64,000 nucleotides of DNA from NCBI RefSeq assembly GCF_016811105.1, contig NZ_JAFBGM010000001.1, positions 372,001 to 436,000 on the forward strand, written 5' to 3'. Under the pieces are notes generated by a model. The model saw only the letters and a program-made list of their open reading frames with translations. It had not been told where the DNA came from and ran no database searches. Made by a program: the position numbers and the translations under genes. How positions within the stretch are numbered: the first letter of the stretch is position 1; each line of letters begins with the position of its first letter. This DNA comes from Aurantibacter crassamenti (GTDB taxonomy: Bacteria; Bacteroidota; Bacteroidia; Flavobacteriales; Flavobacteriaceae). Below, one piece after another: positions 1 to 62,782 of the stretch.

Positions 1-99
1 TTTCCACTCTTTATAAAATGCATGTTTTGGATAAAAACTTGCAATAAACGGTATGAATATGCAACATATATCTAAAAGTAAATAAGTGTATGACTGCAT
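1..99 (-). CDS. lycopene cyclase domain protein, 5' end only (cut by window edge)
   Basis: Reading the minus strand from the ATG at 99-97 gives 33 codons open to the window edge. The protein starts MQSYTYLLLD and continues with PFIASFYPKHAFYKEWK. This fits the first transmembrane segment of the heterodimer-type/fused lycopene cyclases (CrtYc/CrtYd family) used by many Bacteroidota to make beta-carotene from lycopene. The ATG overlaps the crtZ stop codon as TAATG, so it is the fourth gene of the crtI-crtB-crtZ operon and is probably translated by coupling. The rest lies outside the window. The assignment rests on the short N-terminus plus context. Confidence 0.7.
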   Translation of the reverse strand, partial: MQSYTYLLLDICCIFIPFIASFYPKHAFYKEWK

Positions 100-557
100 T
101 ATTTTATAAACTGTTTAAAGTATTTAATGGGCACATACAGCATTCCGAAACATTCACCATCTTCTTTGGTTAAGTGCTTATGGTGTACTTTGTGAGCCAT
201 TCGTAATGCTTTTAAATACGGACTTTTAACATTGTCAAACCAATTGAATCTTCGATGTATGATAACATCATGAACCAAAAAATATGAGAGACCGTAGAGA
301 AAAACGCCCAACCCTATAAAAAACAAATAATTAAAGGTAGGAAAGGTGCCGTAATAAAAAAGCAGGATACTGGGTATGGCCCCAATGACAAAAAAGGCGT
401 CATTTTTTTCAAAAACACCTTGATATTTTGGTTGATGATGATCTTCATGCAAAACCCATAAAAAGCCGTGCATTACATATTTGTGGGTGCACCAAGTGAC
501 CACTTCCATCAGTAAGAAAGTTATCAAAACTATTGATATGTATGACAATACAATCAT
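99..557 (-). CDS. crtZ: beta-carotene hydroxylase CrtZ
   Basis: Membrane di-iron hydroxylase that adds 3-hydroxyl groups to the beta-ionone rings of beta-carotene, giving zeaxanthin. The 152-residue protein shows the histidine clusters of the family: HKYVMH (25-30), HEDHH (37-41), HDVIIH (96-101) and HKVHHKH (122-128). Hydrophobic segments lie at about 2-20, 57-75 and 77-95. Length is normal for bacterial CrtZ. It lies 25 bp after crtB and overlaps the lycopene cyclase start, so it belongs to the carotenoid operon. The end product is inferred to be zeaxanthin or a derivative. Confidence 0.93.
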   Translation of the reverse strand: MIVLSYISIVLITFLLMEVVTWCTHKYVMHGFLWVLHEDHHQPKYQGVFEKNDAFFVIGAIPSILLFYYGTFPTFNYLFFIGLGVFLYGLSYFLVHDVIIHRRFNWFDNVKSPYLKALRMAHKVHHKHLTKEDGECFGMLYVPIKYFKQFIK

Positions 558-582: not shown

Positions 583-1419
583 CTATATAAAATTTAAACG
601 ATAACGCAGAACAGCTTTGGTCAACAATACTAACTTAATAGAATTTGATACTCGAATTCTGCCGTTCATGATTTTTTTACAATCCGCTTTTTTAATTTTT
701 TGTAGTAATCGCAGATAGTATCTATACGCCAAATAAACACCTAATTTACCCTCAATTGGTAATAACACAATACCCTTGTACGCTTCTTTAAAATCATTCT
801 CAACATCTAAAATTATTTCAGCTTTAGTTTGTTCAGTCAATTCACCCTTTACTAAATTCGGAAAATAAGAACGGCCTAACTCTTCATTATCTTCTCGTAT
901 GTCACGCAAAAAATTTACTTTCTGAAAGGCGGAACCTAATCGCATTGCATAGCCTTTTAACTCGTTGTACTTCTTCTCATCATTGTTTACAAAAACTCGC
1001 AGACACATTAGCCCTACAACATCTGCAGAGCCATAAATGTAGTTTTCGTATTCTTCTTTAGATGTGTATTCTTTTTTATCAAGATCCATTCGCATTCGAT
1101 CCATAAAATCTTGAACATAATCTTTAAGGTCATATTTGTGAACAATTTCTTGAAAAGCATTTAGAATAGGATTTAAACTAATTTTTCGTTCCAATGCTTT
1201 GTAATAATCTTGCTCAAACTCATCAAACAAGGTTAATTGTTGATAATCATGAAATGTATCAACAATTTCGTCTGCATATCGTACAAAGCCATAAATGGCA
1301 TAAATAGCAGGTCTTATTTTTGGCGAGAACATTTTGATGCCCATTGAAAATGAGGTGCTATAGGTTTTAGTCACCAACTTACTACAATCATAACTTGAAT
1401 TATCAAATAGCTCTTTCAT
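583..1419 (-). CDS. crtB: phytoene synthase CrtB
   Basis: Joins two geranylgeranyl diphosphates head to head to make phytoene, the first committed step of C40 carotenoid synthesis. The 278-residue protein has both aspartate-rich substrate motifs of squalene/phytoene synthases: DEIVD at about residue 50, and DIREDNEELGR at about residue 174. The start ATG overlaps the crtI stop by 4 bp (ATGA), so the two are translationally coupled. Length is typical of flavobacterial CrtB. Confidence 0.95.
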   Translation of the reverse strand: MKELFDNSSYDCSKLVTKTYSTSFSMGIKMFSPKIRPAIYAIYGFVRYADEIVDTFHDYQQLTLFDEFEQDYYKALERKISLNPILNAFQEIVHKYDLKDYVQDFMDRMRMDLDKKEYTSKEEYENYIYGSADVVGLMCLRVFVNNDEKKYNELKGYAMRLGSAFQKVNFLRDIREDNEELGRSYFPNLVKGELTEQTKAEIILDVENDFKEAYKGIVLLPIEGKLGVYLAYRYYLRLLQKIKKADCKKIMNGRIRVSNSIKLVLLTKAVLRYRLNFI

Positions 1420-2882
1420 ACTTGATTATGTTTTAAAATCAAGTCACAAACAAGTTTACCGGAAATTAAAGCTGGTGGCACACCAGGACCCGGAACTGTC
1501 AATTGACCTGTGAAATATAATTTTTTAACTTTTTTACTTCTCAAATTGGGCCTTAAAAATGCAGTTTGAGAAAGAGTATTTGCCATACCGTAGGCATTTC
1601 CTTTATATGAGTTGTATTCTTCAACAAAATCATTCAAACAGAAAGATTCACAGAAGATAATATTATCAAAAATTTTTTGGTCTGTTCGTTGTTGAAAACG
1701 CTCCATAATTAAATCAAAATATTGATCTCTAAGTTGCTGATTATCTTCCAAACCAGGAGCAATAGGCACTAAGAAAAAACCAGCCTCACACCCTTCAGGT
1801 GCCATTGAATTATCAGTTACCGAAGGAAAATTGGCATAAAACAATGGATCAGAAGGCCATTTAGGGTTATCATAAATCTCTTGAGCATGTTTTTCAAAAT
1901 CTGTATCAAAAAATAAATTATGGTGCTCAATGTTTTTAAGCTTTTTATTAAAACCAATATAAAAAAGCAACGATGATGGCGCAAACGTTTTTTTATTCCA
2001 ATAGGCTTCAGAATATTGTCTATAGGGTTTATCAAGTAAGGTTTCTGAATGATGATAATCAGCCCCACTAATTACATAATCACTTAAATAATTTTCACCT
2101 TTACTCTTTATACCAACAGCAACGCCATTTTTAACCACTATTTGATCTACTTCATGTTCAGTATGTATTGTCACTCCCAATTCAATAGCAAGACTAGTCA
2201 TGGCCTTCACCACCTCATACATACCACCTCTAGGGTGCCATGTACCTAGACCAAAATCAGCAAAATTCATAAAATTATAGAAGGATGGGGTATTGGTTGG
2301 TTTAGCGCCTAAAAAAAGAACAGGAAATTCAAGCGTGGAAATTAATTTAGGATTCGCAAATTTCTTTCGCACTTCACCACTTATTGTTTTAAAAAACTGA
2401 TCCACCTTTAAAATAGTATCCTTTGTTACCAACTCAAAAGGTGAAATACCAGGTTTCAAAACAACCTTTTCTATTGCTATACTATAGTTCTCTTGAGCTT
2501 CTGCTATGAACTTACGTAATTGTTTAGAACTTCCTTTTTCAATTCTATCAAACTCAATACAAATTTTATCTAAAGTATCTCCAATGGTAATAACATCATC
2601 TGCAAAGAATATTTGGTAAGCAGGGCTTAATTTATCAAGGGTATAATAATCAGAAGTTTTCTTGTCAAAATGGTTGAAAAATTTATCAAAAATATCAGGC
2701 ATCCAATACCAGCTGGGTCCCATATCAAAAGTAAAACCTTGTTTTGATAATTGTCTTGCCCTTCCACCAACTGTCTTGTTTTTTTCAAAAACCGAAACTT
2801 CATTACCTGCTTTTGCTAAATAGCAACTTGCCGATAATGCGGAAAATCCGGAACCAATAATTATCACTTTTTGATTTACCAT
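1416..2882 (-). CDS. crtI: phytoene desaturase CrtI
   Basis: FAD-dependent desaturase converting phytoene to lycopene. The 488-residue protein has an N-terminal dinucleotide-binding motif (VIIIGSGFSALSASCYL, residues 6-22) followed by VFEKNKTVGGRARQ. It ends with the family C-terminal motif TGQLTVPGPGVPPALISGK. It is the first gene of the crtI-crtB-crtZ-cyclase operon. Its upstream region contains the repeated TAGACAAA sites shared with the divergent MerR/B12 regulator, so carotenoid synthesis is probably controlled from there. Confidence 0.95.
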   Translation of the reverse strand: MVNQKVIIIGSGFSALSASCYLAKAGNEVSVFEKNKTVGGRARQLSKQGFTFDMGPSWYWMPDIFDKFFNHFDKKTSDYYTLDKLSPAYQIFFADDVITIGDTLDKICIEFDRIEKGSSKQLRKFIAEAQENYSIAIEKVVLKPGISPFELVTKDTILKVDQFFKTISGEVRKKFANPKLISTLEFPVLFLGAKPTNTPSFYNFMNFADFGLGTWHPRGGMYEVVKAMTSLAIELGVTIHTEHEVDQIVVKNGVAVGIKSKGENYLSDYVISGADYHHSETLLDKPYRQYSEAYWNKKTFAPSSLLFYIGFNKKLKNIEHHNLFFDTDFEKHAQEIYDNPKWPSDPLFYANFPSVTDNSMAPEGCEAGFFLVPIAPGLEDNQQLRDQYFDLIMERFQQRTDQKIFDNIIFCESFCLNDFVEEYNSYKGNAYGMANTLSQTAFLRPNLRSKKVKKLYFTGQLTVPGPGVPPALISGKLVCDLILKHNQV

Positions 2883-3031
2883 TTACATTAAATATATGAA
2901 GATACTTATAATAAATACTTTAAAAATGCACTAGCGATATTATACAAATGCAACTACTACTTGTTAATCATTAAAGACAACTAATAATGCATTGAACTTA
3001 ATTACACATGTTTGTCATCTATATTTAAACA

Positions 3032-3066
3032 TTTGTCTATGTATTAAGCAAATATAGTTAGACAAA
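3032..3066. repeat. inverted repeat operator candidate, copy 1
   Basis: TTTGTCTA at 3032-3039 and TAGACAAA at 3059-3066 are exact reverse complements separated by 19 bp. The right half site runs into a minus-strand -7 element (TATATTTG at 3063-3070), so a bound protein would block crtI transcription. Confidence 0.7.
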
Positions 3067-3084
3067 TATAAGTGATATTTTACT

Positions 3085-3119
3085 TTTGTCTAATACTTTC
3101 ATGTGTTTTTTTAGACAAA
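3085..3119. repeat. inverted repeat operator candidate, copy 2
   Basis: TTTGTCTA at 3085-3092 and TAGACAAA at 3112-3119, again 19 bp apart, lie 53 bp (about five helical turns) from copy 1. The left half overlaps a plus-strand -7-like TACTTTTG (3081-3088). This copy lies nearest the regulator gene and could give autoregulation. Confidence 0.7.
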
Positions 3120-3195
3120 ATTGTACCTTTATAGCTTGATACTATTAAAAAACGACAATAATTAAAGGAAATACACTTTAAAATTTAGACATTTT

Positions 3196-61816: not shown

Positions 61817-62782
61817 TTGAACAAACAACTAAAAAGGATATTAAAAACGATACTCCCAATTGCATTGGGAGTTTTTTTTGTTTGGTATTGGTACAATTCA
61901 ACTTCGCCTTCAGATAGGCAACAAATTTTGTATTATATCAAACAGGCCGATTTATTCTGGGTCGGCATTTCTATGGCACTTGGCATTTTAGGCCATGTAT
62001 CTAGGGCAGTAAGATGGAATTACTTACTTAAACCCTTAGGTTATCAACCGAGGTTAAGTAATAATGTTCTCATAATTTTAATGTCGTACTTCGCAAATTT
62101 AGGGGTGCCAAGAATGGGAGACTTACTTAGAGCACCTGCTTTAGCAACTTATGAGGGTGTGCCCGTTGAAAAGGGATTCGGCACCATTGTCACAGAACGG
62201 GTCATTGACGTACTCATGTTGTTCTCTATAATTGCAATTACTTTTTTATTACATACCGATATCATCTTGGGTTATCTACAAGAAATTGGGTTTCCCTTAA
62301 ACAAAATCATCCTATTACTAACAATGGGGCTAGTCGGTTTAGCAATCTTTACGCTATTCATTAAAAAATCAAAACATCAATTTGCCATAAAAATTAAAGA
62401 CTTTGTAACTGGCCTAATGGAAGGTGTGCTAAGTATCTTTAAAATGAAAAACAAATGGCCTTTTATTCTACATACTTTTTTTATATGGGGATGCTATATT
62501 GGCATGCTCTGGGTTATTAAATTTACAGTTGCTGAAACTATTGTCCTTTCATTAAGTCAACTTATGGTTGCTTTTGTTGCCGGAGCATTAGCAATGATGT
62601 TCACCAATGGCGGTATTGGTCTATACCCAATAGCAGTCAGTAAAGCGTTAGCCATTTTCGGAATTAGTAATATCTCTGGTGATGCCTTTGGATGGATTAT
62701 GTGGACATCTCAAACCCTAATGATAGTGATTTTTGGGGCAATATCTTTTCTCATTTTACCGTTATTGAACAGAAACCGCTAG
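61817..62782 (+). CDS. lysylphosphatidylglycerol synthase-type transmembrane protein (flippase-like)
   Basis: The 321-residue membrane protein has about eight helices, starting KQLKRILKTILPIALGVFFVWYWY split over the first helix, and the family motifs LLRAPALATYEGVPVEKGFG and TNGGIGLYPIAVSKALAIFG. Members are UPF0104/AglD-like and are thought to move lipid-linked molecules. It starts at TTG 61817, immediately after the panD stop. Its cargo is unknown, and its link to pantothenate is probably operon convenience. Confidence 0.88.
   Translation: MNKQLKRILKTILPIALGVFFVWYWYNSTSPSDRQQILYYIKQADLFWVGISMALGILGHVSRAVRWNYLLKPLGYQPRLSNNVLIILMSYFANLGVPRMGDLLRAPALATYEGVPVEKGFGTIVTERVIDVLMLFSIIAITFLLHTDIILGYLQEIGFPLNKIILLLTMGLVGLAIFTLFIKKSKHQFAIKIKDFVTGLMEGVLSIFKMKNKWPFILHTFFIWGCYIGMLWVIKFTVAETIVLSLSQLMVAFVAGALAMMFTNGGIGLYPIAVSKALAIFGISNISGDAFGWIMWTSQTLMIVIFGAISFLILPLLNRNR

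Follow-up and report, generated by a model that had tools for sequence, protein, structure and literature searches.

The closest described systems are the operators of CarH and CarA. In the parts of one article covered here (PMC9304148), CarH of Thermus and Bacillus was described as a MerR/cobalamin repressor of carotenoid genes whose half-site, nnnnTnnACAn, forms three to four tandem 11-bp direct repeats over promoter elements. The Myxococcus CarA/CarH operator was described in the same parts as a stretch of about 55 bp near the -35 region with two inverted repeats, one perfect and one imperfect. Relatives of Myxococcus showed these inverted repeats in degenerate form or had lost them, and the binding was later attributed to direct repeats, the more probable recognition sites. 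In flavobacterial genomes, a MerR-type gene beside crtI was reported as a putative regulator (PMC5887021, PMC4732338, PMC11855829). This is the same gene neighbourhood as the one analysed here, and the covered parts of these three papers described no operator, regulon or link to rhodopsin promoters. In addition, among the open-licence papers retrieved, no title or abstract beginning described the present operator or regulon in Bacteroidota.

We analysed a 64-kb stretch of DNA (the window), in which a CarH-like gene was linked to carotenoid genes by its divergent position next to crtI-crtB. The features of the locus were as follows.

99..557, minus strand: CrtZ-like carotenoid hydroxylase candidate; no Pfam or NCBIfam match
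583..1419, minus strand: crtB-like phytoene synthase (Pfam SQS_PSY), overlapping the end of crtI
1416..2882, minus strand: crtI, phytoene desaturase (NCBIfam CrtID, 717.9 bits, cut-off 640), divergent from the CarH-like gene
3032..3066, no strand: inverted repeat 1, TTTGTCTA-N19-TAGACAAA, half-sites 3032-3039 and 3059-3066, exact match
3058..3088, plus strand: promoter candidate of the CarH-like gene from the consensus scan, TTAG (3058-3061), N19, TACTTTTG (3081-3088)
3058..3093, no strand: inner pair TTAGACAAA-N18-TTTGTCTAA, common to both promoter candidates, from sequence reading
3063..3093, minus strand: promoter candidate of crtI from the consensus scan, TTAG (3093-3090), N19, TATATTTG (3070-3063)
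3085..3119, no strand: inverted repeat 2, TTTGTCTA-N19-TAGACAAA, half-sites 3085-3092 and 3112-3119, exact match
3186..3193, plus strand: TAGACATT, two mismatches, directly 5' of the CarH-like gene; may be what is left of the copy that relatives have at the start codon
3196..4095, plus strand: CarH-like MerR/cobalamin-binding regulator, 299 aa, from domain, alignment and structure evidence

Paired inverted repeats at a divergent promoter

The original prediction had described two copies of the inverted repeat with an equal 19-bp gap, 53 bp apart from start to start, and both copies were exact. The half-sites started at 3032, 3059, 3085 and 3112, and their direction alternated. A first-order Markov model predicted 7.6e-5 exact matches in 64 kb of sequence and 0.005 in 4.52 Mb. 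The 4.5-Mb genome that contains the window held these two N19 copies, no third, and a single exact N18 match, located outside the window. The pair is real and not a product of chance. When up to three mismatches were allowed, the window gave three matches against a shuffle mean of 1.23, and 11 of 100 shuffles reached three. Since this count was not unusual, the significance of the repeats rests on their exactness. A match with three mismatches at 62271 was at chance level and was rejected as a further site. Across the genome, sites with two mismatches were not above the reversed control (N19, 6 vs 8; N18, 3 vs 5), and the loci L033-L036 and L053, which lay in or beside unrelated genes, were taken as chance matches.

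The distance of 53 bp had been predicted to be close to five helical turns and was computed as 5.05 turns. However, the prediction that all four half-sites fall on one face failed by arithmetic, since 27 bp corresponds to 2.57 turns and 26 bp to 2.48, and neighbouring half-sites are inverted. Only half-sites of the same direction, 53 bp (5.05 turns) apart, recur on one face. Weaker half-sites had also been proposed to continue toward crtI. The candidates, at 3011 (two mismatches), 2974 (two) and 2941 (one), lay off the 26-27 bp step and had no counterpart at the same places in the sister genome, and this proposal was abandoned. On the other side of the array, TAGACATT was without a partner, with five mismatches at gap 18 and at gap 19 alike.

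The motif TnnACA is contained in TAGACAAA, and TAGACA was present in all four window half-sites. The locus was therefore similar in half-site to the Thermus and Bacillus operators and, like them, combined an operator over promoter elements with a MerR/cobalamin regulator of carotenoid genes (PMC9304148, parts covered). In contrast to their tandem 11-bp direct repeats, the half-sites here were inverted, with gaps of 18-19 bp and a pitch of 26-27 bp, as anticipated in the claim that the arrangement differs from that of Thermus CarH. No TnnACA was found at 11 bp from the window half-sites, and direct 11-bp pairs made up 3/99 in clade A (the window and its 17 nearest relatives, 18 loci), so tandem CarH repeats around the half-sites were rejected. 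Judged from the sequence, the half-site appears to be the known one and the arrangement new compared with CarH operators. The Myxococcus operator is alike in its length of about 55 bp, its two inverted repeats and its position near the -35 region. There the inverted repeats degenerated in relatives, whereas the inverted spacing was conserved here. Because the CarA sites were re-read from inverted to direct repeats in the covered parts of that article, the true contacts at the present sites could differ.

Two promoter candidates were found within the array. The scan used TTTG-N17-23-TAnnTTTG, which we take to be the promoter consensus. A perfect -7 box occurred only in two pairs, TACTTTTG on the plus strand and TATATTTG on the minus strand, each with a TTAG that was one mismatch from TTTG and 19 bp off its -7 box. 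Weaker pairs numbered two on the plus strand and three on the minus strand. The two candidates face each other and overlap around the inner pair TTAGACAAA-N18-TTTGTCTAA, and the TTTG of each -7 box is the start of a half-site. The array had been predicted to overlap -7 elements on both strands, in agreement with this layout. Because the half-sites overlap both promoters, a bound protein would cover both. The sister genome showed, by eye, the same N18 spacing and the same layout of TTAG, N19 and -7 box at the inner pair. An operator array at the shared divergent promoter of the crt operon and the CarH-like gene was upheld by sequence, and the part of the prediction that tied it to crt was not, since the site was not crt-specific and marks a regulon. 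Control of crtI by the array would follow from this position.

The CarH-like protein and a proposed light switch

The 299-aa protein matched Pfam MerR_1 and B12-binding_2, both above cut-off, and gave no match to the Rossmann B12-binding Pfam model. The cut-off of the NCBIfam CarH equivalog NF052513 was missed (93.8 vs 400 bits). The closest solved relatives by sequence were Thermus CarH/LitR. A structure model was obtained with pLDDT 87.9 and pTM 0.75, and in a PDB fold search Thermus CarH took ranks 1-12 with TM of about 0.5-0.6 and large rmsd over whole chains. W138, E148, H149 and H186 were invariant in 23 homologues and aligned with Thermus W131, E141, H142 and H177, which we take to be the cobalamin-site residues by number and role. 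The position of Thermus H132, presumably the second cobalt ligand after light, was T, G or Q in the 23 homologues, and histidine was not kept.

We consider it likely that the array serves as operator for the neighbouring CarH-like protein, a repressor whose regulon responds to light, with repression by the AdoCbl-bound form in the dark and release in the light. The predicted operator itself is well supported. Binding by the CarH-like protein, repression, the oligomer state and the roles of B12 and light are what we infer. The DNA-binding domains of a CarH-like oligomer would grip the TnnACA half-sites, whose direction switches at each step of 26-27 bp. Without light, the oligomer with AdoCbl bound would bridge the inverted half-sites and cover the -7 boxes that serve the crtI operon and the CarH-like gene, so that RNA polymerase would be blocked and both promoters repressed. 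Light would break the Co-C bond, the oligomer would release the DNA, and both promoters would become active. An operator of this kind, mostly with gap 18, may control a fasciclin lipoprotein gene and an SRPBCC-SDR-photolyase operon in the same genome, and rhodopsin, folE, msrA and htpG in relatives. Such a system would suggest that CarH-like DNA-binding domains can work on inverted as well as tandem sites.

The loss of the H132 histidine would also fit a CarH-like protein that binds these sites and does not sense light through AdoCbl, being either B12-independent like CarA or responsive to another ligand or to stress. The predicted targets htpG and msrA fit general stress as well, and CarA shows such a change within the family (PMC9304148, parts covered). 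However, PDB titles list H132A variants of Thermus CarH in dark and in light-adapted crystal forms. These variants, the invariance of the other cobalamin-site residues, the presence of a corrinoid adenosyltransferase in the same genome, and the photolyase and rhodopsin genes among the predicted targets spoke against this reading, which we regard as unlikely.

A separate observation concerned the start of the protein. The MNN N-terminus of many CarH-like proteins was encoded by an operator half-site (L021, L022, L025 and similar loci). The binding site may therefore limit which residues the protein can carry at this end.

Conservation in relatives and co-occurrence with the CarH-like gene

Conservation in relatives had been set beforehand as a test that could refute the operator. 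Half-sites and spacing were kept, and the commonest gap was 18, followed by 19. Both repeats of the sister genome had N18, all steps measured 26 bp, and one half-site contained a mismatch. Regular 26-bp arrays were found upstream of the 18 CarH-like genes of clade A. Here the distance was 26 bp in 14/59 and 27 bp in 5/59 of the <- -> pairs, and 26 bp in 9/60 of the -> <- pairs; 15/99 direct pairs stood at 52-53 bp. Among 12 named Arenibacter/Tamlana loci, 7/20 <- -> pairs were at 27 bp and 9/33 direct pairs at 52 bp. Conservation was uneven, and locus L017 retained one recognisable half-site. At many clade A loci (L005, L007, L013 and others), the gene divergent from the CarH-like gene resembled, by eye, the start of a fasciclin-type lipoprotein and not crtI.

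The start of the CarH-like gene was scanned with the right arm loosened to TnnACA, in 49 of 58 loci, the start not being located in the other nine. At or near the start, exact N18 was found in 18/49 loci and N19 in 7/49, and the 21 other gaps (8-30) together gave two. An exact copy ran over the start codon in 21/49 loci; the window was without such a copy. By comparison with these relatives, the window appears to carry the +1 gap form (N19) of the site.

The gap preference was then examined for TTTGTYTA-N6-36-TARACAAA in 45 family genomes. Among the 75 matches listed of 105, N18 accounted for 30 (17 genomes) and N19 for 6 (5 genomes), and each remaining gap for 0-4. Pooled over gaps 6-36, the pattern gave 105 matches and the reversed control 113, so the signal is the N18 peak; the gap-by-gap tally covers pattern matches only, and the control is a single total over all gaps.

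When only gaps 17-18 were considered, 156/249 family genomes matched, against 32/249 for the reversed control. The N17/18 site was present in 150/204 family genomes with a CarH-like gene and in 6/45 without it (Fisher 5.8e-14), where the 45 comprise 20 listed genomes and 25 deduced by absence. In these 45 genomes the reversed control gave 9/45. In a draw of 198 Bacteroidota genomes, exact N18 occurred in 26/42 genomes with a strong CarH-like gene and in 1/156 others (Fisher 1.8e-20), and the reversed control in 5/198. Here strong means E <= 1e-70, a threshold set after the list had been viewed, and genome G396 among the 156 others matches at 2.6e-40. Most of the 156 lie outside the class, and within the same family, order and class 0/7 genomes without the gene had exact N18. 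Both p-values overstate independence, because the genomes are linked by descent and some family members occur in both draws. The gene was present in the absence of the exact site in 54/204 (N17/18) and 16/42 (N18) genomes. Exact N18 was also found in 11/23 strong class genomes outside the family, which indicated that the operator predates the family.

Co-occurrence is not binding, and in related genomes a different regulator that accompanies the CarH-like gene could bind the sites, for example the TetR-type protein whose gene adjoins 3 of 64 sites. However, the TetR-type gene occurs at those three sites only, copies of the site are repeatedly found where the CarH-like gene itself begins, and the half-site equals that known for CarH, which made this reading quite improbable.

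Predicted regulon and rhodopsin genes

Neighbouring genes were tallied at 64 exact N18 sites in 60 stretches. Fasciclin-repeat lipoproteins were the commonest neighbours (22 site-gene pairs), followed by mnmA on the far side (13), crtI (6), and an SRPBCC protein, a 73-aa protein and htpG (4 each). MsrA, TetR-type, GLPGLI, GHMP kinase and large secreted protein genes were found at three sites each. Single neighbours included folE, a rhodopsin gene with divergent blh, a desaturase-fold gene (ketolase candidate) and a CarH-like gene. The names SRPBCC, mnmA, htpG, TetR-type and GLPGLI are presumed from resemblance. The stretches were hand-picked from the listed matches, mostly in list order, so that site-rich genomes weigh more; L073 and L126 were counted twice, and at least five listed N18 sites (G203:C37, G207:C13, G243:C58, G012:C23, G105:C48) were omitted. 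One ORF per side was taken by a length rule, and small genes may be missed. For ten chosen proteins, Pfam supported fasciclin, SDR, photolyase (fragment), rhodopsin, beta-carotene dioxygenase, GTP cyclohydrolase I, MsrA and FA_desaturase, and GHMP kinase weakly; the SRPBCC protein had no Pfam match. The predicted targets are pigment, light and oxidative-damage genes.

In the window's own genome, the exact N18 site was centred 182 bp upstream of a fasciclin gene (L054), and an N18 site with two mismatches lay 27 bp upstream of an SRPBCC-SDR-photolyase run (L052). The sole ground for retaining the latter was an exact site upstream of the equivalent SRPBCC gene in the sister genome (L055). The fasciclin-domain algal protein AstaP binds carotenoids (PMC10147662, parts covered), so the operator-linked fasciclin lipoproteins (L054, L068, L070, L073 and others) may be carotenoid-binding photoprotection proteins. 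Two further recurrences were observed. Directly behind the operator, L056, L065, L125 and L129 encoded a short protein (KMSHMSTSDRVKASR...) of about 73 aa. The operator stood before an htpG-like gene in four genomes (L060, L064, L107, L138), with a divergent TetR-type gene in three.

No rhodopsin gene was found in the window's own genome. In the family, 62 rhodopsin genes occurred in 59/249 genomes, and 59 of the 62 were examined after G067 (contig end), G104 (fragment) and G045 (below cut-off) were dropped. A gap-18 site, with at most two mismatches and situated no more than 300 bp before the gene or in its first 60 bp, was found for 34/50 rhodopsin genes in genomes with a CarH-like gene and 2/9 in genomes without it; the assemblies of the two positive genomes without it are 73% and 81% complete. 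Exact sites preceded 9 of the 50, and rhodopsin L188 had an exact N19 site in place of N18. The second-best gap was 8, in 20/50 at up to two mismatches, probably due to the -7 box. This gap and the overlap of half-sites with promoter boxes would fit repeats that are by-products of AT-rich boxes (TTTG at -33, TAnnTTTG at -7) on both strands, a reading made hardly credible by the sharp N18 preference, the rarity of the control pattern and the tie of the sites to the CarH-like gene, since such promoters are expected in all these genomes.

The operator points to the CarH-like protein as a candidate regulator of flavobacterial rhodopsin genes; none was described in the titles and abstract beginnings of the open-licence papers retrieved. 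Through this conserved site family, flavobacteria probably activate pigment formation, DNA repair and, in relatives, rhodopsin pumps when exposed to light. TTTGTYTA-N18/19-TARACAAA would then be a DNA code by which a predicted regulon for light and B12 can be read across a large environmental group of bacteria. We give about even weight to a broader reading, in which a Bacteroidia-wide branch of CarH-type B12 photoreceptors, acting on operators of a new geometry with half-sites that alternate at a pitch of 26-27 bp, would be the missing light switch of marine flavobacterial rhodopsin phototrophy, and a single regulon would comprise proteorhodopsin, the synthesis of carotenoids and retinal, photolyase and fasciclin lipoproteins. 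The covered part of a Dokdonia paper refers by title to a study of light-induced transcription and to another of constitutive expression of rhodopsin; given the latter, the rhodopsin prediction will not hold everywhere.

Three longer rhodopsins with a NANFEN N-terminus (L074, L075, L076) were without the operator. We take these to be sodium-pump-like. Their genomes hold a second rhodopsin gene with a site of one mismatch (L196, L176 and L175).
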